Below, piece by piece: positions 102 to 51,068 of a stretch of DNA of 64,000 nt. Position 1 is the first letter of the stretch. Every line of letters starts with the position of its first letter. The DNA is from Verrucomicrobiia bacterium (lineage in GTDB: Bacteria; Verrucomicrobiota; Verrucomicrobiia; Palsa-1439): contig JAJVHY010000022.1 in the NCBI GenBank assembly GCA_022072455.1, forward strand, positions 1 to 64,000. The letters run 5' to 3'. The translations under genes and the position numbers were made by a program. The notes beneath the pieces are model-generated. The model ran no database searches and was not told where the DNA came from. It worked only from the letters and a program-made list of their open reading frames with translations.

Positions 102-767
102 TTACTGAACTTGACGGACACAACTCGCGTAGCCCGCCCCCGCCACCGTATTGCTCACCCCCACCACCGCGCTCGCACCCGCCACCACCAGCCCCAGCCC
201 CACCGGCCGCACCGCCTCCGCCAACCCCACCGGCCCCAGATACCCGTCTCCACCAACGCGATCCAATCGAGAACCGGGCTGCCAATCCAATGTCTCCAAC
301 TTCCCCTGCCCCCGCCGCGTCGCGATCACTAACCGCCCCACCGCATTCGTCGGCACGTACGTCGCAATGGAGAAGTTAGCATTGTCGCCGTCCGGCCGAA
401 TGTAGCGAATCCAATCGTTGCAGTTGAACGTGATGTCCCAAAGGTTCGTGGCACTACCGGGAACAATAGTCGTTTGCCATGCATCGTCCGACACCCATAG
501 CACGACCGGATTAGTGACCGAGTAGATGTCGTAGATTTTCACCTGCGTACACATCTCATTCCAGTTGGTCACGAGATTGGCGTTGTTCATCGCGCCAAGG
601 CCAAGAGTCAGACGCGCCAAGTCGCCCACAACGACGTAATTGCCGGCATTGGTGAGCGTGTGCGGATCGTTGTCGTTGTAGATGTCGATGATTGGCGTTT
701 GCGTTCCGGCAAGAGCGGCGGCCAGCAGGGCCGCGCCCACCGCCAAGTTGACGCACCATCGTTTCAT
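102..767 (-). CDS. Secreted protein of unknown function
   Basis: This 221-residue protein begins with MKRWCVNL and a hydrophobic stretch (residues 8-20), which looks like a signal peptide ending near the AGT at 20-22. The rest is Asn/Asp/Thr-rich and hydrophilic, with no motif I recognise. The open frame extends further upstream, but only as a shadow of the PIN toxin gene. I chose the ATG at 767 because it gives the signal peptide and overlaps the toxin stop by four bases (ATGA), which suggests translational coupling in one minus-strand operon (antitoxin, toxin, this gene). The first eight codons almost match the start of the remnant at 1567-1749, so the two genes share an origin. A strong terminator follows the stop. 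Confidence 0.65.
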   Translation of the reverse strand: MKRWCVNLAVGAALLAAALAGTQTPIIDIYNDNDPHTLTNAGNYVVVGDLARLTLGLGAMNNANLVTNWNEMCTQVKIYDIYSVTNPVVLWVSDDAWQTTIVPGSATNLWDITFNCNDWIRYIRPDGDNANFSIATYVPTNAVGRLVIATRRGQGKLETLDWQPGSRLDRVGGDGYLGPVGLAEAVRPVGLGLVVAGASAVVGVSNTVAGAGYASCVRQVQ

Positions 768-1189
768 GCCAACTTCAACCGGCCCGCCGCGCGCTCGCGT
801 TCGAGGAACATCCCGGGCTTGAGCACGGGCAACCCGTAGAACTCGCTCCCCAATACGCTCCCAAAATCCCCCCGGTCCAGCGTCAGCAGCACGTCCGCCC
901 ACGCCAACGCACCGAACAGGATCGGGCGGTCTTTGCCCGCTGGGAATACCGCGGGGCGATCCAGCGTCACCACGTCGTCCATCAGCACCAACCTCTGCCT
1001 CAATCGCGCCCACGCGGCACTGGCCGCGGCGGGAAAGGTCGGGAGGTTGCGCAGCACTTCGTCCACGACGTAGGGAGTGGCCAGCAACTACCAGCGGTTG
1101 CCGGGGGCGAGCCGGAAGATTTCATGGGACGCGCCCCGATCCGAGGCGCAGGCGGCGAGCAGAACGCTGGTGTCGAGGAACAGCTTCAC
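764..1189 (-). pseudogene. PIN-domain toxin with an in-frame stop
   Basis: Read from the GTG at 1189, the frame gives VKLFLDTSVLLAAC, the classic PIN start with its first catalytic Asp. After 33 codons there is a TAG stop (1088-1090, following NRW), and the same frame then continues for 107 codons to 764. The distal part keeps the later acidic residues (VVDEVLRN, then WADVLLTLDRGDF) of a VapC-type ribonuclease. Removing the stop gives about 141 residues, normal for the family. The GTG overlaps the antitoxin stop by four bases (GTGA). A single base change seems to have killed the toxin, or the base is a sequencing error. A re-start at the TTG just after the stop would lack the first catalytic Asp. 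Confidence 0.85.
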
Positions 1190-1386
1190 ACGCTCTTGCG
1201 GAACTGCTGGAGGTCGGCTTCATCCTCGGCGATCCACGCCGCCATTTGCTCGCGCGAGAACTGGCGCGGCTCCGGCAACTGCGCCCCCGCCGCCCGCAAC
1301 CGTGCCGCCAGAAACAGCATCAACTCCTGTTTCTGCGTCACCGGCAATTTCTCCGTGGCCTCTTCGATTTCCGTCAAGGTGCTCAT
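1186..1386 (-). CDS. Antitoxin of a PIN toxin-antitoxin pair
   Basis: This 66-residue protein starts MSTLTEIEEATEKLPVTQKQ and is mostly helical and acidic, with a central ELMLFLAARLR stretch. It resembles the small antitoxins that precede PIN toxins; I do not see a clear DNA-binding fold. The start is the ATG at 1386, since the longer frame upstream has no antitoxin character. Its stop overlaps the toxin GTG by four bases, the usual order for antitoxin then toxin. It still looks intact although the toxin carries a nonsense codon, so it may survive as an orphan antitoxin. Confidence 0.7.
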   Translation of the reverse strand: MSTLTEIEEATEKLPVTQKQELMLFLAARLRAAGAQLPEPRQFSREQMAAWIAEDEADLQQFRKSV

Positions 1387-1441
1387 GCGGTGGAACCTAG
1401 CACGGCCGGCGCGGGTCCGGCAAGCCGCGGGTAGGGCGCGA

Positions 1442-1463
1442 TTGCCGCACACGACGGCGGCGT
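1442..1463. repeat. 22-bp exact dispersed repeat, copy 1
   Basis: The 22 bases from 1442 (TTGCCGCACACGACGG and on) occur again, inverted, at 51381-51402. Both copies lie in gene-free DNA. The 180 bases between 1387 and 1566 hold no gene that I can support. Confidence 0.7.
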
Positions 1464-1566
1464 TTGCGTGCCCGCTTCTCGTCTGACTCGATTTCGCTCC
1501 GCTTCGGCTGTCCGGGTGCGCCGTGCCGTGAGTGATTCGCGATCGGCCCGGCGGTCCGACCCCACC

Positions 1567-1749
1567 TCACAACGGCCCGCGCACGCGCCAGAACTGCTGC
1601 TGGGTGTTGTGCACCGTGCCGGTCAGCGTCAACGTCGCGCCCGGGGCCACCCCATTGGTGACCGGCACCCAGCCCCCGGCCAGGCCGTTGGTCGCCGTCT
1701 CCAACGCGTAGCCCACCTCCGCCACCAAGTTGACGCACCGGCGTTTCAT
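1567..1749 (-). pseudogene. Remnant of a secreted protein (start fused to C-terminus)
   Basis: This 60-codon frame opens with MKRRCVNL, nearly the same as the start of the secreted protein at 767, including the bases around the ATG. After about ten codons it becomes a stretch (GYALETATNGLAGGWVPV ... QQQFWRVR) of the kind that ends many verrucomicrobial secreted proteins. The signal-peptide core and the body between them are missing. The simplest reading is a large in-frame deletion in a paralogue of the 102-767 gene, leaving the first codons and the last 50. A genuine small protein is possible but would have no export signal. The ATG at 1749 is chosen for the match to the paralogue. Confidence 0.5.
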
Positions 1750-1830
1750 GCCCGCGCATCCTTCCAGACCAGATTGCACAGGCTGTAATCCGCCTTCACG
1801 CGCGGGCTCTGCACCCGCCGATCAGACGAA

Positions 1831-2754
1831 TCAGCATGCACCGCTCCTGAGCCACTCCAACAATCTCGTCACTGCCAATTCCTTGGCTTTCGCTTCCACT
1901 TCCACTGTCAACTTGAGGCGTTTCCATGCCGACGGAAAATCACGCGGCTCGATGTAGTCGTGATGTCGTTCGGGTCGCGGACCGCGCCAGCCGTCGAGCG
2001 GACTGGACAGGTGAACCACCGGCTCGCAATTCCACGTCGCCCGCGCCCGCGCCGTCGCTGCCTCAATGCTCAAGCCGTCGGGCAAACAGCGATGATGGTG
2101 CACGTCATACACCAGCGGCACGGCGGTGTCCTCGCAGACTGGCAACAAATCCGCAGGCGTGTAGATCTTGTCGTCGTTTTCCAACGTCAGCCGCGAACGC
2201 ACCACCGCCGGCAGGCGGTTGATGTTCTTGCGCAGCGTCCGCAGGGCCGCAGGCTTATCGCCATACGCACCACCGCCGTGGATGTTGATTGTGTCCGCGC
2301 CAATCCAACTGGCCACCTCCGCCTGATAATCCAATTCCGCCAGCGAGTGCGCGAGCGTCGTCACGTTCGGCGAGTTCAAGACCACAAACTGGTCGGGATG
2401 AAAGGACAACCGGATGTCATGTGCCCGCGCCAACTCGCCACATTCCCGAAATCGGGCAATGATGTCGCCCCCCGCCGGCAACTCGCGCATATCGTAGCCG
2501 GCTTGCGGATGCGTCTTCACGGGCAGAATCTGACTGTTGACGCGAAACGCGCCGAAGCCGTGCCCCGCGCAGTAGCGCACCGCTGCCAGCAGCGCGGCGG
2601 CGTTGCTCCGACACAGTTCGCCCAAACGCGCCAGCCGGTCGCGCCGCGATAGCCGCAACATCGCCGTTGCCGTCGTCGTGCGAAACTTGATCGGCTCGCG
2701 CGCAAACTGGCAGCACAACCCGAGGCGAATCCCGCGCCATTCATTTTTTCGCAT
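1831..2754 (-). CDS. uvsE: UV DNA damage endonuclease UvsE
   Basis: This 307-residue TIM-barrel enzyme nicks DNA just 5' of UV photoproducts and starts a repair path separate from UvrABC. It has the family's metal-ligand stretches in order: SFHPDQFVVLNSP, TINIHGGGAYGDK, LTLENDDKIYTP and VPLVYDVHHHRC. Length is normal for UVDE proteins. I took the ATG at 2754, which follows a GAAGG ribosome site inside the preceding gene; its start overlaps the thioredoxin gene by 14 bases. It is the last gene of a five-gene minus-strand run beginning near 5030. With the photolyase at 22.4 kb it gives the organism two independent ways to handle UV damage. Confidence 0.95.
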   Translation of the reverse strand: MRKNEWRGIRLGLCCQFAREPIKFRTTTATAMLRLSRRDRLARLGELCRSNAAALLAAVRYCAGHGFGAFRVNSQILPVKTHPQAGYDMRELPAGGDIIARFRECGELARAHDIRLSFHPDQFVVLNSPNVTTLAHSLAELDYQAEVASWIGADTINIHGGGAYGDKPAALRTLRKNINRLPAVVRSRLTLENDDKIYTPADLLPVCEDTAVPLVYDVHHHRCLPDGLSIEAATARARATWNCEPVVHLSSPLDGWRGPRPERHHDYIEPRDFPSAWKRLKLTVEVEAKAKELAVTRLLEWLRSGAC

Positions 2755-3175
2755 CGACAAGCCTTCGCACCACTTCGGCGTCGAGCGTGCCCGTCCCGCG
2801 CCACTGCTCCTTCGCGGTCGCGTCGAACAAGATGAACGTCGGCGTCACCTCGATCGCGTACTGCTTCAGGAGTTGCCGGCCCTCAGCGCTTTGAATGTCC
2901 ACCCGGCGCACGGCAAGTTTGTCCCGCAACTCATTCTCCAACCGATCCACAACCGGCTTCACCGCAACGCAACCGAAACAGAACGGCGACTGCACCTCCA
3001 GCAACAGCGGCTGACCGGCCACCGCCGTGACTGGCGTTGCCACCGGCCGAAAAATCAACCACCCCACCACGTAAACAATCGCGATCCCCGTCAGAACCCG
3101 CCACCCCAATCGCCGACTGAAAATCAGCAGCAACACGCCGACGATCACCACGGAATAATGATTGAAAAATTGCAT
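2741..3175 (-). CDS. Membrane-anchored thioredoxin-like protein
   Basis: This is a 144-residue protein. Residues 7-42 are hydrophobic and should form one or two membrane segments (VVIVGVLLLIF, then GIAIVYVVGWLIF). The rest is a thioredoxin fold with the redox pair in SPFCFGC and the cis-Pro loop in VTPTFILFD, so the active site probably faces the periplasm. A role in disulfide exchange or in delivering electrons to secreted proteins is likely, but the partner is unknown. I chose the ATG at 3175, because the longer frame reads through the end of the methyltransferase gene. It sits one base away from that gene and overlaps uvsE by 14 bases, so the run is an operon. Confidence 0.85.
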   Translation of the reverse strand: MQFFNHYSVVIVGVLLLIFSRRLGWRVLTGIAIVYVVGWLIFRPVATPVTAVAGQPLLLEVQSPFCFGCVAVKPVVDRLENELRDKLAVRRVDIQSAEGRQLLKQYAIEVTPTFILFDATAKEQWRGTGTLDAEVVRRLVDAKK

Positions 3176-43722: not shown

Positions 43723-44058
43723 ATGGATCCTTTCCTGTGGGCCGATGGGGTTGGGCGGTTGGTCCCAGGTGAGTCCCGAGTCCCAAGTGTACGATGGCGT
43801 GTCCCAGCGCATGAGGATTATCCTCGCCGTCCGGCCAGTCTGCCGTTGAAGAATGTTCGTCGGTAGCGCATCGGCTGCTCCGCATTCCAGAGCAAATGGC
43901 GTGCCATGGCTCGTTCCCACACCACCAGCGCAGGCGGTCCAGCCGCCGAACCGGCTCGCCCGTCACTCTACCCGATGGAGTTCGCGAGCCAGCAGCACCA
44001 CCGAGCGTGGAAACAACCCCACCACACATGAAAAACGGCGCGGTAAGCATGGAAACGA
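43723..44058. other. Gene-poor DNA before the tandem array
   Basis: I find no convincing gene here apart from the possible N-terminal extension of the fibronectin-type protein (to 43812). Near 44005-44058 degenerate pieces of the tandem unit appear (GAGCGTGGAAACAA, then AGCATGGAAACGA), so the array once extended further left. Confidence 0.5.
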
Positions 44059-44359
44059 GACCATCAAGCGTGGTCACATGGTCGACCAAGCTTGGAAACG
44101 AGACCACCACGCGTGGGCGCCTGGTCGACCAAGCTTGGAAACGAGACCACCACGCGTGGACGCTTGGTCGACTAAGCTTTGAAACAAGACCACCACGCGT
44201 GGGCGCTTGGTCAACTAAGCTTGGAAACAAGACCACCAAGCGTGGGCGCTTGGTCAACTAAGCTTGGAAACGAGACCACCACGCGTGGACGCTTGGTCGA
44301 CTAAGCTTTGAAACAAGACCACCCAGCGTGGACGCTTGGTCGACCAAGCATGGAAACAA
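44059..44359. repeat. 43-bp tandem array, seven units
   Basis: Seven head-to-tail units of exactly 43 bases. Each contains a GACCACC start, the palindrome CCACGCGTGG or a one-base variant, TGGTCGACCA or TGGTCAACTA, AAGCTT and a GGAAACGA end. Units 3 (44145-44187) and 6 (44274-44316) are identical. Because 43 is not a multiple of three, reading frames rotate through the array and it is not coding in any simple way. There are no unique spacers, so it is not CRISPR. Confidence 0.93.
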
Positions 44360-44745: not shown

Positions 44746-47439
44746 ATGGGGAATCCTGCGACGTTCGTCTCATTCGAGAAGGAACTGAATCGGCTGATTA
44801 TCATCTTCGAGCGTAACTTACCGGCGCTTAAAAGTGCTGGGTATGACGAAGCCAGTCTCCGGCAGGAGTTTCTCAATCCATTTTTCCGCGCTCTTGGTTG
44901 GGATATGGAAAACAAGGCCGGGTTGATACTCGCCCATCGTGAGGTGATCGCCGAAAGTCGGACAGATACGGGCCGAGCTGATTATCTTTTTCAGACCGAC
45001 CGCAAACGTCGTTTCGTCTGTGAGGCGAAAAAACCTGCCGAAGAACTTCACCCGCATGCCCAGCAAGCCAAAGGTTATGCTTGGACAATCGGAGTGCCGT
45101 TCGCTGTACTGACAGATTTTGAAGAACTAAGGATTTACATCGTCGGCAGCGAGCCGGAAGAGGACGAGCCGTTGGTTGGGCTTTGGAAGACCTACCAGTT
45201 CCGCGAGTATCTAGCCAAGGCGCGCGAACTTTGGGATTTACTGGCCCGCGACAACGTGGCCTGTGGCAGTATTGACCGGGCAATTGAGTCGCTACCGAAA
45301 AAACCTCTCCGACTGGGCAAGGGCCAATTTGTTATCCGACCCGACCCGACACAGAGCTTCGACGCCAAGTTCCTTGGCTTTCTCGATGATGCCCGTCGCT
45401 CGCTTGCCTCCGACTTGATCCGTCAGAACGACCGTGCCGATCTGCTGGAAGGCACCCGGCTCAACGATGCCGTCCAATGTATTCTCGACCGCCTCCTGTT
45501 CATCCGCATTTCGGAAGCGCGCGGCATTGACATGGGTACGAAGCTCGAGTCGTTGTTGGAGACTTGGCAGCGGCGGAATGAACAGGCGAATTCCGTGCGC
45601 GAACCGCCGGCCCATTGGGGTGGTGCCGGCTTGAAAGCTCCAAAGGGATCACTGTGGCATGTTATCGTACGCCACAAACGAAAGAAAGATGTGTGCTGGT
45701 TTGACGCCAAGACCAATACACTCCATTTGACCGTCCGGACCAAACGCCGAATACTGCGCGAGACAATTTACGGCGTGGATATTGATCGGCAGGCGGTAGA
45801 AGTGACTCAGCTTTCGCTCTACCTAAAAATGTTGGAAGGCGAGACAAGTGAAACACTCCAACGCGAACAAGATCTATTCGGCGCCGACGAGCCGATTCTT
45901 CCGTCGTTGCAGGAGAACATCAAGAATTTCAATTCGCTGATTGGCCATGACTTTTCCATAATTCCCGAAGATTTGGTACGGGTGAATGCCAAGGACTGGG
46001 ATGTTCAATTCGCATCAATTATGAAGAGCGGCGGGTTTGATGCCGTGGTTGGAAATCCCCCATACATCCGCATTCAGACAATGCAGGAAAGCGATCCGGA
46101 ATCAGTAGCGTACCTGAATCAACACTATACAGCGGCAAAGAAGGGAAACTACGATATCTACGTTTGCTTTGTCGAACGGGTACTTTCACTTGTGAATAAA
46201 CATGGAACGATGGGATTCATTCTTCCGCATAAGTTCTTCAACGCTCAATATGGAGAAGGGCTTCGCGAAGTGATTTCGAATGGGAAGCATCTCCGTCGAG
46301 TTGTGCATTTCGGGCATCAGCAGGTTTTCGAGGGTGCGACGACCTATACCTGTCTATTGTTCCTCGACAAATCACCTCAAGAAAGCTTCACATTTGCATC
46401 TGTCAGTAACTTAGCTACTTGGTCTGAAAAGGGAGTAAGCCAAGAGCGAAAATTTCCACACTCAGACACACAGGCTTCTGAATGGAACTTTAATTCTGGT
46501 CCGGACGCCGGACTTATCGAGCGGCTTTTCAAGCTGCCAGTTAAGCTTTCTGATGTCGCTCACTTGTTTGTCGGACTTCAAACCGATGCTGACGACGTAT
46601 TCATACTCGAATTGGTCAGGCAGTCATCAAACGAACTCGTTTGTTTCTCTAGGGCGACCGAAAAGGAACATAAGTTTGAGCGGGAACACTTGAAACTTCT
46701 CCTGAAGGGCTCACTAAACGTGCGCCGGTACGAGTTGGATTCAGTTACAAAGCGACTGATTTTCCCGTATGAAATTATCGATAACTCCTCGGTCGTGATT
46801 TCAGAAAGAGACTACAAGAAGCGCTTCCCAAAGACCTGGCGCTACTTGGAAGAGAATCGCGGCCGGTTGTCGAAACGGAACAAGGGAAAGCAGCCTGACG
46901 GCTGGCATGGCTATGTGTACAAAAAGAATCACACCCGGCTTGGGAGCCCCAAAATAGTTGTTCCGTCGTTGGGCACAGGAAGTTGCTTCGCATTGGACAG
47001 TACCGGTCAGCACTATTTTGTAGGGAGTGGTGCAGGCGGTGGCGGTGGTTATGGCATAGTACCAACGAACAGTGACATAGGAGACATCCGCTTCCTTCTT
47101 GGATTGCTGAACTCCCGCCTTCTCAGCTTCCTAATTAAGAAAACCTCGACTCCATTTCGCGGCGGCTATATTGCTTTGAATCGCCAATACATTGAGCGAC
47201 TTCCAATTCAACTCGTTGATCTTAAGACAACCACCGGCAAAGGCCAGCACGACAAGCTAGTGGGGCTGGTGGACAAGATGTTGGTATTGACGCCGAAGCT
47301 GCGCGCGGCAAAATCGGACGCGGAGCGCGCGACGTTGCAAAACGCCGTCACCGCCACCGACCGGCAGATTGACCGGCTCGTTTACGAACTGTACGGATTG
47401 ACCGACGAGGAAATTCAACTTGTAGAGGAAACGGCTTAA
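44746..47439 (+). CDS. Type IIG restriction-modification protein lacking methyltransferase motif I
   Basis: An 897-residue fusion of nuclease, methyltransferase and target-recognition parts. The N-terminal PD-(D/E)XK site is D79 in TGRADYLF with E93 and K95 in VCEAKKP. The methyltransferase catalytic motif is VVGNPPYIR (437-440), preceded by LRETIYGVDIDRQAVEVTQL. The SAM-binding motif I (DPACGSGSF type), which should lie about 100-200 residues before NPPY, is absent. The helical domain (250-300) passes almost directly into KRKKDVCWFDAKTNTLHL. Normal members have some 150 more residues here. An internal in-frame deletion near residue 310 (about 45670) explains this. SAM binding, and so methylation, should be lost; nuclease residues remain. 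G+C falls visibly from about 46 kb on. Confidence 0.85.
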   Translation: MGNPATFVSFEKELNRLIIIFERNLPALKSAGYDEASLRQEFLNPFFRALGWDMENKAGLILAHREVIAESRTDTGRADYLFQTDRKRRFVCEAKKPAEELHPHAQQAKGYAWTIGVPFAVLTDFEELRIYIVGSEPEEDEPLVGLWKTYQFREYLAKARELWDLLARDNVACGSIDRAIESLPKKPLRLGKGQFVIRPDPTQSFDAKFLGFLDDARRSLASDLIRQNDRADLLEGTRLNDAVQCILDRLLFIRISEARGIDMGTKLESLLETWQRRNEQANSVREPPAHWGGAGLKAPKGSLWHVIVRHKRKKDVCWFDAKTNTLHLTVRTKRRILRETIYGVDIDRQAVEVTQLSLYLKMLEGETSETLQREQDLFGADEPILPSLQENIKNFNSLIGHDFSIIPEDLVRVNAKDWDVQFASIMKSGGFDAVVGNPPYIRIQTMQESDPESVAYLNQHYTAAKKGNYDIYVCFVERVLSLVNKHGTMGFILPHKFFNAQYGEGLREVISNGKHLRRVVHFGHQQVFEGATTYTCLLFLDKSPQESFTFASVSNLATWSEKGVSQERKFPHSDTQASEWNFNSGPDAGLIERLFKLPVKLSDVAHLFVGLQTDADDVFILELVRQSSNELVCFSRATEKEHKFEREHLKLLLKGSLNVRRYELDSVTKRLIFPYEIIDNSSVVISERDYKKRFPKTWRYLEENRGRLSKRNKGKQPDGWHGYVYKKNHTRLGSPKIVVPSLGTGSCFALDSTGQHYFVGSGAGGGGGYGIVPTNSDIGDIRFLLGLLNSRLLSFLIKKTSTPFRGGYIALNRQYIERLPIQLVDLKTTTGKGQHDKLVGLVDKMLVLTPKLRAAKSDAERATLQNAVTATDRQIDRLVYELYGLTDEEIQLVEETA

Positions 47440-47462: not shown

Positions 47463-48947
47463 ATGAGTGCTATACCAAGCAAACGTCCAACCAAAGTCTA
47501 CTTCTCTGATTTCTTCGACGTTTCGCCAGAATCACTTGCTAAGTATGGTGCATTCAATGTGGCGTGCATAGTAGATCTTCCGCTCTTCGTTGACCCCTTC
47601 CTCCTCTTTACAAGCAGAAAGCCCGAGTACCAAGTTCTGCATGAGGAAATAATTTGTTATCTTAGTTTTCTCCGAGACAAATCAGTTAAAGGTGGAATTA
47701 GCAACGGATTGCTGACCGCTTGGTATTGCTTCCCGGAAGTTCATCAAAACCAACTTGGATTCTGCCTTTCAGGAAACAGAGGCAGAGGGTTAGGAATGGA
47801 TTTCGCTCGGGCCTTGAATGATAACTTGCACAAGTTATTTAGCGATTTTGGGAAGGAAAAGGTAACGAAGGGCTCGCACTTAGAGAAACTCGTGCTCATT
47901 CGAAACCGAGTTGGCCGAGATAATATCAGCGATTTCACCACAAATCTTATCAAGGGCTTCTTGCTCGAATACACACAGCGCTTTGCTCAAAAGCATATTG
48001 ATCCCACCAAGCTTCAAGAAGTAGCAGTGTCCAATACTCGTTTCAATTACACTGCTGGTTCTTGGGAGAGCGCCACGTTCAATCTTCCTTGGCTATTCGG
48101 GGATTACGTCCTGCTGACCCCTGAAGATATCCTAACAAAAGACGATACATGGATTAACAAAGAAGATCTTCGTAAGGACTTCCCGAAGATTAGGGACTCA
48201 ATACCGGACGAAGCTCTACGGGCGCAGATTGATGAGTACTTTAGGAGCGTACTCCCGAAGAAGCCCACAGAAGGCGAGAAAAAGGAAGCGACTGAAAAAA
48301 CTCTCCGACAATTTCACGAGCTCATTGATTATTACATTCGCAACAAAGAAGACAATGGCGCTGAAGCGGTCCGAAAGAGCGCTCAAAAAGTCCAAGAAGT
48401 AGACAATCTTTTCGTCCATAACATTTGCCACCTCATTGAACTAATTGCGGCGAAAAGCCAGTTCTACGGACTACCTGGCAACACATTGTCCGAAACGAAG
48501 CGTAAGATTGAGTATTTGAAACACGTAATCGAAGATCAGGATGGGTATCGAATCTTTTACGTGAAGGGTAAGCCAGTTGAGCGGGAAAAGGATTTACAAA
48601 TCCTTTTCAAGCTAGTTTGGGAGGGCTCTCCAAGCTCTGTTGATGCGGAAGTAAATAACGGTCGTGGCCCTGTTGACTTCAAAGTCTCGCGGGGCTCTGC
48701 CGACAAAACGTTGGTAGAATTTAAGTTGGCTAGTAACAACCAGCTTGAACGCAATCTTGAGAATCAAGTGGCGATTTATGAAAAAGCCAACAAGTCCACG
48801 CAATCCTTCAAAGTCATTCTATTCTTTTCACAAATTGAGCAGGTTAGAGTTCAGGGGATATTGAAACGTCTTCAGGCAACTGAGGCAACCGGTATAATCT
48901 TGATTGATGCGCGACCAGACAACAAACCATCCGCTTCAAAAGCGTAA
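47463..48947 (+). CDS. Uncharacterised protein with a PD-(D/E)XK-like C-terminus
   Basis: A 494-residue protein I cannot assign to a named family. It starts with VYFSDFFDVSPESLAKYGAF; the middle is helical and charged. Near the end NGRGPVDFKVSRGSADKTL, then VEFKLASNNQLERNLENQ, has the D...(E)xK spacing of a restriction-like nuclease core (Asp of PVDFK, Glu and Lys of EFK). A strong AAGGATT ribosome site precedes the ATG 24 bases after the type IIG gene, so the two are co-transcribed. Its base composition is the lowest in G+C of the region, a sign of recent transfer. A role as a partner or second effector in restriction is inferred from position. Confidence 0.7.
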   Translation: MSAIPSKRPTKVYFSDFFDVSPESLAKYGAFNVACIVDLPLFVDPFLLFTSRKPEYQVLHEEIICYLSFLRDKSVKGGISNGLLTAWYCFPEVHQNQLGFCLSGNRGRGLGMDFARALNDNLHKLFSDFGKEKVTKGSHLEKLVLIRNRVGRDNISDFTTNLIKGFLLEYTQRFAQKHIDPTKLQEVAVSNTRFNYTAGSWESATFNLPWLFGDYVLLTPEDILTKDDTWINKEDLRKDFPKIRDSIPDEALRAQIDEYFRSVLPKKPTEGEKKEATEKTLRQFHELIDYYIRNKEDNGAEAVRKSAQKVQEVDNLFVHNICHLIELIAAKSQFYGLPGNTLSETKRKIEYLKHVIEDQDGYRIFYVKGKPVEREKDLQILFKLVWEGSPSSVDAEVNNGRGPVDFKVSRGSADKTLVEFKLASNNQLERNLENQVAIYEKANKSTQSFKVILFFSQIEQVRVQGILKRLQATEATGIILIDARPDNKPSASKA

Positions 48948-49368
48948 CCGCAGCCAACGCACCGGTGGTGCATCCTTACCAACGGCTCGCACTGCGTATC
49001 GCGCATGGCGCGGCTCGCAGCCCACTCAACTGGAGCAAGACACGTTGCTCTGGCCGGAAGCGATTGCAGAAAGCGTCGTTCTCGAAGCGAGCCGGTATCT
49101 TGGCGCGGCCTTGCCGGCGGACTACCCGGCACGGCTGGCGGCCAAAGCGTATTACCTCTACCCGCGCCACCGGCATTTCCACGAAGTCTTGAACCGTCCC
49201 GGCAATCGCGGACGACACAATCTCTACGTCTACATGCGGCATTGGACGGCGAGTTGGCTCAAGCGCGAGCGTTCACCATTGTTTCGTCGGCTCCCATGGG
49301 AATACGCGCTCGGCCGAGCGTTGCCGGTGATGATTTCCGAAAGAGATGCTTCGACACGCTCAGCATGA
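48907..49368 (+). CDS. Small basic protein coupled to the membrane nuclease gene
   Basis: A 153-residue basic protein with no recognised domain. The conserved-looking core is AAKAYYLYPRHRHFHEVLNR, then GRHNLYVYMRHWTASWLKRE, rich in Tyr, His and Arg. Proteins like it occur as small hypotheticals in this phylum. The start is uncertain: the ATG at 48907 overlaps the previous gene by 41 bases, and no ribosome site decides. Its stop overlaps the nuclease ATG by four bases (ATGA). The last codons lie in a repeat also found at 51446. Confidence 0.55.
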   Translation: MRDQTTNHPLQKRNRSQRTGGASLPTARTAYRAWRGSQPTQLEQDTLLWPEAIAESVVLEASRYLGAALPADYPARLAAKAYYLYPRHRHFHEVLNRPGNRGRHNLYVYMRHWTASWLKRERSPLFRRLPWEYALGRALPVMISERDASTRSA

Positions 49369-49370
49369 CA
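49342..49370 (+). repeat. Direct repeat at the left edge of the membrane nuclease gene
   Basis: AGAGATGCTTCGACACGCTC followed by AGCATGACA matches AGAGATTCCTCGATAAGCTC plus GGAATGACA at 51446-51474 in 23 of 29 positions, same orientation. The nuclease ATG (49365) lies within this copy. Confidence 0.6.
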
Positions 49371-51068
49371 CCGGGACGGATACTGTTTGCCGCGTTGCTT
49401 GGCTTGAGCCTGCTCCGAAGCGTTCTCGCCGATGACGTTGTCACATTGAATTCAGGCGAGGCAATTACCGGCCACATTACCTCGGAAACTGGTGCCCAAG
49501 TTGTGATTGATGTACCCAACGCGAGCCGAACGATTTTCACGCCTAGAACAATCTCAAAGTCCGAGATCAAGACAGTCCAGCGCGAGACAGCCGAGGCTAA
49601 ACAGGAACGCCTTGCCTATGAAGCATTGCAGAAGTACCGGCTGAACCCTGATCAAGAGTGGACGGTCGCGCAATACAATGCCGCCCTTGCCGTTTGTCAG
49701 CAATTCCTTGGCCTATACCCCGATGGAGAGCATGCTGCAGCAGTGCGGCAGAAAAACGAGCAGTGTCAGAAGGAGAAGGAGCAGGTTGAGAAGGGTTTGG
49801 TGAAGTTTGACAACCGGTGGATGAGCGCCAGTCAAAAAGCAGCGGAGCGAGAGTTGCGGACTAATTTTGACAAACTGGAGCAGATGGAGCGCAGTGTGGC
49901 TTATCTGGGAAGACAACGGGCGTCGCCCGACAAGATCAGCCGCGCGAAGTCAGATTTGGCGCGAGTCCAACGCGACTATGACAATGCCAAGGCAAAGCGT
50001 GACCAGATCGTAGCCAGTGCAGTTCAGGCACAAAAGACGGCATTAGCCCAAAAGGCGGTGCTGGCGGCGAAAGCGGCAGTTCCGGCACCGCTACCGGTAG
50101 TACAGCCCGCACCGCCGCCGGTAGTGCAGCCGGCCCCGGCTCCGAAGCCGGCCGCAGTTGTCCCGCATCCTACCAATGCCGAGCGCCAGCGCCAGCTTCA
50201 CGAGGCGCGGATTCAGGCAGAAATGAATCGCGTCCGTGAGACGCAAGCCCGGCAACTCCTCCAGCAGAAACAAAATACCGCACGCGGACCGGGGTGGCCA
50301 TATTGGGGACTGGTCGTAGTCGTATTGTTGGTGGGCGGGGCCGTCGCCTTAGTGATGATCAGTTCCGGTCAACTAAGCCCGGCGCGGGGCGCAATTCCTC
50401 CTTACATCCCCACGCCAAAGAGAGCTAACGTCTCGCCCCGTTCTGCATCTCCGCCGCCACTGACTGGCGAGTCGTGGCGTTTTGAAGAAGTCCGGCAGCA
50501 GGAACCTTCGAATCCTGACATGTGTGAGCCGCGCAGTGTTATCGAGAAGCTCAGACGTATTGATTGGTACAAATTCGAGAAGGTCGTTGGTCTGATTTAT
50601 CAATCACAGGGCTATCGGGTCAAGCTACGGGGTGGAGCCAAGGCGGATGGCGGCATTGATTTAGAGGTTCAAAAGGACGGGGACAAGGTTGCGGTTCAAT
50701 GCAAGCACTGGAAGACATATAAAGTGCGATTGCGGGTGGTAAAAGAGCTATTCGCCTCGATGACGGACGAACATTTCTCACGCGGTATGATTGTTGTCCT
50801 CGACAAATTCACGTCGGAAGCGAAAGCGTATGCTATTCAGCATACGATTGACTTTGTGACAGCCGCTGACCTTGAACGGATGATCGCGCAACTCGATTCC
50901 ATCGATCAGCACCGGATACACGCGATGCTGGACGATCCAACGGTGAATTGTCCGAAGTGTGATTCCGTAATGAATTGGAAAGCGCCCCCGCATGGAAAGG
51001 TTTGGAAGCGGAAACCATTCTGGGGATGTACCCGGTTTCCTTCGTGTGACGGTAAGATTGAAGTGTGA
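49365..51068 (+). CDS. Membrane-tethered Mrr-type nuclease with zinc ribbon
   Basis: A 567-residue protein with an unusual order. Residues 1-22 are a signal peptide (RILFAALLGLSLLRSVLADD). Residues 70-230 are a charged coiled coil. A Pro/Ala linker (240-266) and a second helix follow, then a membrane segment at 312-332 (YWGLVVVVLLVGGAVALVMI). The cytoplasmic part is an Mrr-like PD-(D/E)XK nuclease (398-510) with D432 in GGIDLEV and Q445/K447 in VAVQCKHW. It ends in a four-Cys topoisomerase-type ribbon (C529, C532, C555, C561). Mrr nucleases cut foreign or modified DNA, and here the enzyme would sit at the inner membrane with a periplasmic sensor. The start overlaps the preceding stop by four bases. 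Confidence 0.85.
   Translation: MTPGRILFAALLGLSLLRSVLADDVVTLNSGEAITGHITSETGAQVVIDVPNASRTIFTPRTISKSEIKTVQRETAEAKQERLAYEALQKYRLNPDQEWTVAQYNAALAVCQQFLGLYPDGEHAAAVRQKNEQCQKEKEQVEKGLVKFDNRWMSASQKAAERELRTNFDKLEQMERSVAYLGRQRASPDKISRAKSDLARVQRDYDNAKAKRDQIVASAVQAQKTALAQKAVLAAKAAVPAPLPVVQPAPPPVVQPAPAPKPAAVVPHPTNAERQRQLHEARIQAEMNRVRETQARQLLQQKQNTARGPGWPYWGLVVVVLLVGGAVALVMISSGQLSPARGAIPPYIPTPKRANVSPRSASPPPLTGESWRFEEVRQQEPSNPDMCEPRSVIEKLRRIDWYKFEKVVGLIYQSQGYRVKLRGGAKADGGIDLEVQKDGDKVAVQCKHWKTYKVRLRVVKELFASMTDEHFSRGMIVVLDKFTSEAKAYAIQHTIDFVTAADLERMIAQLDSIDQHRIHAMLDDPTVNCPKCDSVMNWKAPPHGKVWKRKPFWGCTRFPSCDGKIEV

Follow-up and report, generated by a model that had tools for sequence, protein, structure and literature searches.

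Eco57I-like Type IIG enzymes share one domain order: nuclease, helical connector, gamma-class methylase and target-recognition domain (TRD). Laboratory point mutants in which the SAM-binding region or the NPPY motif is damaged show reduced or abolished cleavage. The SAM-binding-deficient RM.BpuSI N406A neither methylates nor cleaves (PMC3817140); TspGWI V356M and N473A, mutants of motif I or IV, cut weakly, N473A without methylation, and the double mutant does not cut (PMC2700111). Sinefungin restores TspGWI N473A, an effect that suggests allosteric regulation through the SAM pocket (PMC3968444). Digestion by TspDTI is alike with and without added SAM, so that SAM dependence varies among relatives (PMC3384240). 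Type IIG cleavage is thought to require transient pairing of molecules (PMC3874165), and restriction enzymes also exist in solitary form (PMC3488263). Haloferax volcanii carries a natural remnant of a Type IIG enzyme, HVO_A0006, whose PD-(D/E)XK nuclease is intact (PMC4389544).

The window analyzed here is a stretch of 64,000 nucleotides from a Verrucomicrobiia bacterium. It contains a stop-free 897-aa ORF (44746-47439, forward strand) which has the domain order of Eco57I-like enzymes (Eco57I, 997 aa), but is without 156 residues that comprise motif X, motif I and a part of the connector. As in the BpuSI and TspGWI mutants, it is the SAM part that is damaged; here, however, the lesion is a natural 156-aa deletion and the NPPY motif is intact. 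Unlike HVO_A0006, which consists of the N-terminal 219 aa only, the window protein also keeps the NPPY core and the TRD. Its features are as follows:

44746..47439, + strand: R-M gene of the Eco57I-like Type IIG, shortened by an internal in-frame deletion to 897 aa (~1020-1050 aa in relatives)
44746..45165, + strand: N-terminal PD-(D/E)XK nuclease domain; D79/E93/K95 kept, 0/22 family-conserved columns changed
45166..45675, + strand: residues 141-310, N-terminal part of the helical connector; the C-terminal part, YxFGYVAVEILGTIYERFLGK in relatives, falls within the deletion
45675..45676, + strand: deletion junction H310/K311; 468 bp (156 codons) gone
45676..46380, + strand: remaining methyltransferase core; motif II GVDID and motif IV VVGNPPYI kept, motif III region changed from CGNSL to NFNSL
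46381..47436, + strand: target-recognition (TaqI_C-like) and C-terminal domain; aa identity to L026 up to ~96% per 50-residue window

The ORF matches the Pfam families Eco57I (PF07669, E = 1.4e-44), N6_Mtase, TaqI_C and HSDR_N, and the PADLOC Type IIG model REase_MTase_IIG PDLC03604 aligns with it in two stretches interrupted mid-protein (E = 1.9e-191). The N6_Mtase match starts only at profile position 73, whereas in full-length relatives it starts at position 3-20; what is missing is thus the start of the methylase domain. D79, E93 and K95 occupy invariant or nearly invariant columns of the family, the catalytic motif IV is present, and the TRD matches PF12950 (TaqI_C-like, E = 1e-07) and is closely similar to that of L026. 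No DPACGSG-type motif I occurs in the protein, motif X (GGVYYTP) is absent, and the connector between nuclease and methylase lacks its C-terminal part. The protein is an Eco57I-type IIG descendant without two defining features and is classed as a defective member of the family.

We aligned the protein with its close relatives L026 (Verrucomicrobia MAG, ~80% aa identity), L027 (81%) and L028 (73%), and with the full-length paralog L003 from contig C10 of the same genome (55%). The gap is exactly 156 residues against each of the four, between H310 and K311, with the window gene reading CGC CAC before the junction and AAA CGA after it. The original prediction had described a Type IIG enzyme with its SAM-binding segment lost near residue 310 without a break of the frame, with the D79/E93/K95 site and VVGNPPY kept and no DPACGSGSF-type motif. 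The alignment with full-length relatives, which it had itself proposed, bears out each of these points and makes the position exact: the 468-bp in-frame gap holds both motif X and motif I. In the relatives, the segment completes the helical connector (VEILGTIYERFLGK) and also contains motif X and, as LDPACGSGSF, motif I; identity between the relatives is 87-90% here, and ~41 of the invariant or near-invariant positions of the family fall within the segment. With the flanks of the relatives (CAC ATC and GAC AAA), a 3-bp match (ACA) would be possible at the breakpoint. A chimeric or recombinational junction was considered and rejected, as windowed identity shows the nearest relative to be unchanged across residue 310. 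Transfer of the segment to another contig was likewise rejected: among the contigs searched, it occurs elsewhere in the genome only in the distinct C10 paralog.

We predicted the structures of the window protein and of full-length L027 with AlphaFold2, using the alignments from this analysis. The mean pLDDT and pTM are 81.7 and 0.62 for the window protein, and 86.7 and 0.81 for L027. The difference resides in the connector (residues 201-310, block-mean pLDDT 32-73) and the methylase core (311-420, 46-80), where the same parts of L027 are mostly at 80-96; nuclease and TRD are predicted equally well in both proteins. The L027 model shows what the window protein lacks: connector helices and a strand pair, the helix of motif X and, from the methylase, its first strand plus the helix following motif I. 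The confidence values are no measure of stability and support damage to the connector and core without proving it. The remainder of the window model superposes on CamA, M.BseCI, M.TaqI, MmeI and BpuSI, so the fold assignment is sound.

Conservation outside the gap is high. Among the 102 columns conserved at 95% or more in the family, the window protein departs from consensus at one: 0/22 in the nuclease, 0/13 in the connector, 1/46 in the remaining methylase and 0/21 in the TRD and C-terminus. The single change, G395F, stands beside C394N and converts CGNSL to NFNSL. By its position, and by analogy with the motif order of TspDTI (PMC3384240), the site would belong to the motif III region, a part of the SAM pocket. 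The methylase part carries 12 unique amino acid changes in the window protein, compared with 3 in L026 and 6 in L027, an excess that hints at relaxed selection without proving it. Against L026 and L027, the gene has a dN/dS of 0.06-0.08; dS is saturated, and dating from this ratio gives a bound only. A neutral period longer than ~5% amino acid change after the deletion seems unlikely from a Poisson bound on the 102 columns. The conserved remainder (dN/dS ~0.07) indicates that the deletion is recent or that the protein is still in use. The conservation data fit both, and the open frame, the single changed column and the low dN/dS support the earlier statement that the event is recent or some use remains.

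To place the protein within its family, we collected homologs from genome contigs (the best 80 of 138 relatives), from 57 relatives and from 294-400 genomes sampled per phylum in four phyla. A first regular-expression test for motif I flagged ~13 homologs, nearly all of which are D-M/I/K-[AS]-C-G-S-G variants. With the pattern D-x-[ACST]-[ACS]-G-[ST]-G, motif I is kept in 134 of the 136 distinct near-full-length family proteins of this collection. The window protein and L037 make up the two exceptions, ~1.5% of the near-full-length open copies surveyed, and they alone among the 136 have internal, non-terminal gaps of over 25 core columns. No viral copies of the family were found in the survey. 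The lost segment is present in the close relatives and in the same-genome paralog, and motif I in 134 of the 136 homologs; the deletion is not ancestral.

L037 (positions 201-3161 of its locus; Planctomycetaceae MAG, SKKK01000031.1) resembles the window gene in family and in the in-frame loss of motif I with the rest kept. Its deletion is independent and smaller (62 aa), leaves motif X in place, and is bounded by a 4-bp repeat, GTAC. The genome of L037 also encodes a near-identical full-length paralog, L204 (G423:C346), which matches it at 95-96% identity to either side of the gap but has a different TRD; the pair is suited to dating and testing motif I losses. Other copies are broken by a frameshift, a stop or an out-of-frame deletion (L054, L090, L036 and L127, versus 144 intact), and two further copies with an internal stop occur in the phylum samples. 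L127 (G329:C392) combines a large internal deletion with a frame change. A locus of the same genus as the window (L016, G001:C72:4271-5323) holds a related Type IIG gene reduced to short ORFs, which seems to be a copy in more advanced decay. An arrangement of another kind is found in Dolichospermum (L038:2635-9042), where two complete Type IIG genes of the family form a direct tandem.

We consider it likely that a complete, horizontally acquired Eco57I-type IIG enzyme was inactivated by one 468-bp in-frame deletion, leaving a recently killed gene with a silent nuclease. The GC content of the window drops from ~0.66 to 0.46-0.54 over 45-49 kb, consistent with acquisition. The intact gene would have undergone a single deletion, probably between the short (~3-bp) match, that took part of the connector together with the SAM-binding elements: motif X, the first strand and the helix with motif I. 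With SAM binding lost and the connector cut, the nuclease would stay out of its cutting state; marking and cutting would be silenced together, and the host could survive without self-marking. Little time would have passed since, with the gene now in early decay. The few changes in conserved columns suggest a recent event, if evolution has been neutral since the deletion. As for methylation, judged from the sequence it is almost certainly abolished, because motif I and motif X are absent and with them the SAM pocket. The earlier conjecture that the whole protein is dead if it needs SAM is favored by the behavior of BpuSI N406A (PMC3817140) and the TspGWI mutants (PMC2700111), and by the drop of AlphaFold confidence in the connector and core.

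Three observations count against the gene being dead. The lack of a second lesion, the perfect nuclease and the low dN/dS are equally expected of a protein in use; L037, where motif I was lost independently and also in frame, makes a selected state possible; and TspDTI cuts without added SAM (PMC3384240). A retained role for the window protein thus has a real but small chance. Its best-surviving form, though an unlikely one, is a non-catalytic or accessory function, in which the truncated protein would bind sites through its TRD, pair with the C10 enzyme for cleavage or serve as a silent TRD recombination cassette. The full-length paralog in the same genome, the similar company of L037 with its full-length paralog of different TRD, the intact frame with low dN/dS, and the pairing of molecules proposed for Type IIG cleavage (PMC3874165) would all agree with such a function. 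Against it, the C10 paralog is only 55% identical overall and has an unrelated TRD, and the junction bears no sign of conversion, the nearest relative being constant there.

Continued cutting by a SAM-independent nuclease, tolerated by the host as its sites are protected, rare or repaired, is improbable. In its favor, the nuclease domain of the window protein is fully conserved, TspDTI is indifferent to SAM (PMC3384240), TspGWI N473A retains weak cutting without methylation (PMC2700111), and solitary restriction enzymes are known (PMC3488263). However, the deletion has also cut the connector that couples the domains, and BpuSI fails to cut without SAM binding (PMC3817140). The genome contains no methylase or other protein with a TRD similar to that of the window protein, so an active nuclease would probably face unprotected sites and attack its host. 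The unprotected active cutter envisaged in the original prediction is unlikely on the same grounds. If the protein were active after all, it would offer a rare natural test of Type IIG cleavage escaping SAM control.

We regard as equally improbable that Type IIG enzymes lose the SAM site repeatedly and under selection, in which case separate in-frame deletions would create a SAM-blind DNA-binding or DNA-cutting protein that works with, or is restrained by, a full-length paralog. Both large internal in-frame deletions (2/2) remove motif I; with n = 2 plus the out-of-frame L127, counted post hoc, this gives a weak indication of deletion bias towards motif I, and we do not rely on it. The presence of several broken copies against 144 intact ones shows that background decay is normal, and two in-frame deletions are not surprising.

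An assembly or binning artefact, with a real full-length gene from which 468 bp were dropped, is less probable still. The source genome is a draft of 36 contigs with 95.6% completeness, which leaves room for such an error. But the clean in-frame junction shows no ambiguous or duplicated sequence, no contig carries the missing piece apart from the one with the distinct C10 paralog, the nearest relative does not change at the junction, and G395F at motif III fits a loss of SAM binding. Finally, a natural subfamily of short proteins with an alternative SAM site, named beforehand as the finding that would speak against a lesion, was searched for and has next to no probability, since motif I is retained in 134/136 proteins and the sole other short protein, L037, arose by an independent and different deletion.

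The inactivating deletion that we favor represents a real but ordinary case of decay, in which the two in-frame losses are mildly interesting. It illustrates a decay route of bifunctional R-M genes, where one deletion in the SAM part can stop marking and cutting together. Because cutting depends on the SAM-binding part, a cell can survive such a deletion, unlike one that removes a separate methylase gene. Annotation pipelines label ORFs of this kind as Type IIG systems, despite an almost sure lack of methylation.

The R-M gene is followed at a distance of 23 bp by a second gene:

47463..48947, + strand: PDC-M36A-like gene, with a PD-(D/E)XK-like motif (GRGPVDFK...VEFK) recognized by eye

The original prediction had allowed that the truncated enzyme now works only with this neighboring protein, an idea that the distribution of the neighbor does not uphold. 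It has no match in any examined locus of the Type IIG family, and among the 57 relatives it shows a weak match in one genome besides that of the window itself. Its near-full-length plasmid homologs are ~39-51% identical and lie mostly away from Type IIG and R-M genes, standing alone on plasmids of rhizobia, Roseomonas and Janthinobacterium. A Paenarthrobacter plasmid (L214) has a homolog after an MmeI-family enzyme, a helicase and a GIY-YIG protein. We rejected the neighbor as a conserved partner; it is a co-located member of a defence-like cluster. Rfam, tRNA and promoter scans yielded nothing exceeding chance. Just upstream of the R-M gene, at positions 44044-44357, a 43-bp unit that includes the palindrome GCTTGGTCGACCAAGC occurs seven times in tandem, and a short piece related to this repeat is found at G000:C7:191273-191390. 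The same cluster includes an ORF at 49005-51068 in which a likely signal or membrane segment precedes a nuclease domain of the Mrr type and a weak match to a topoisomerase-type zinc ribbon.
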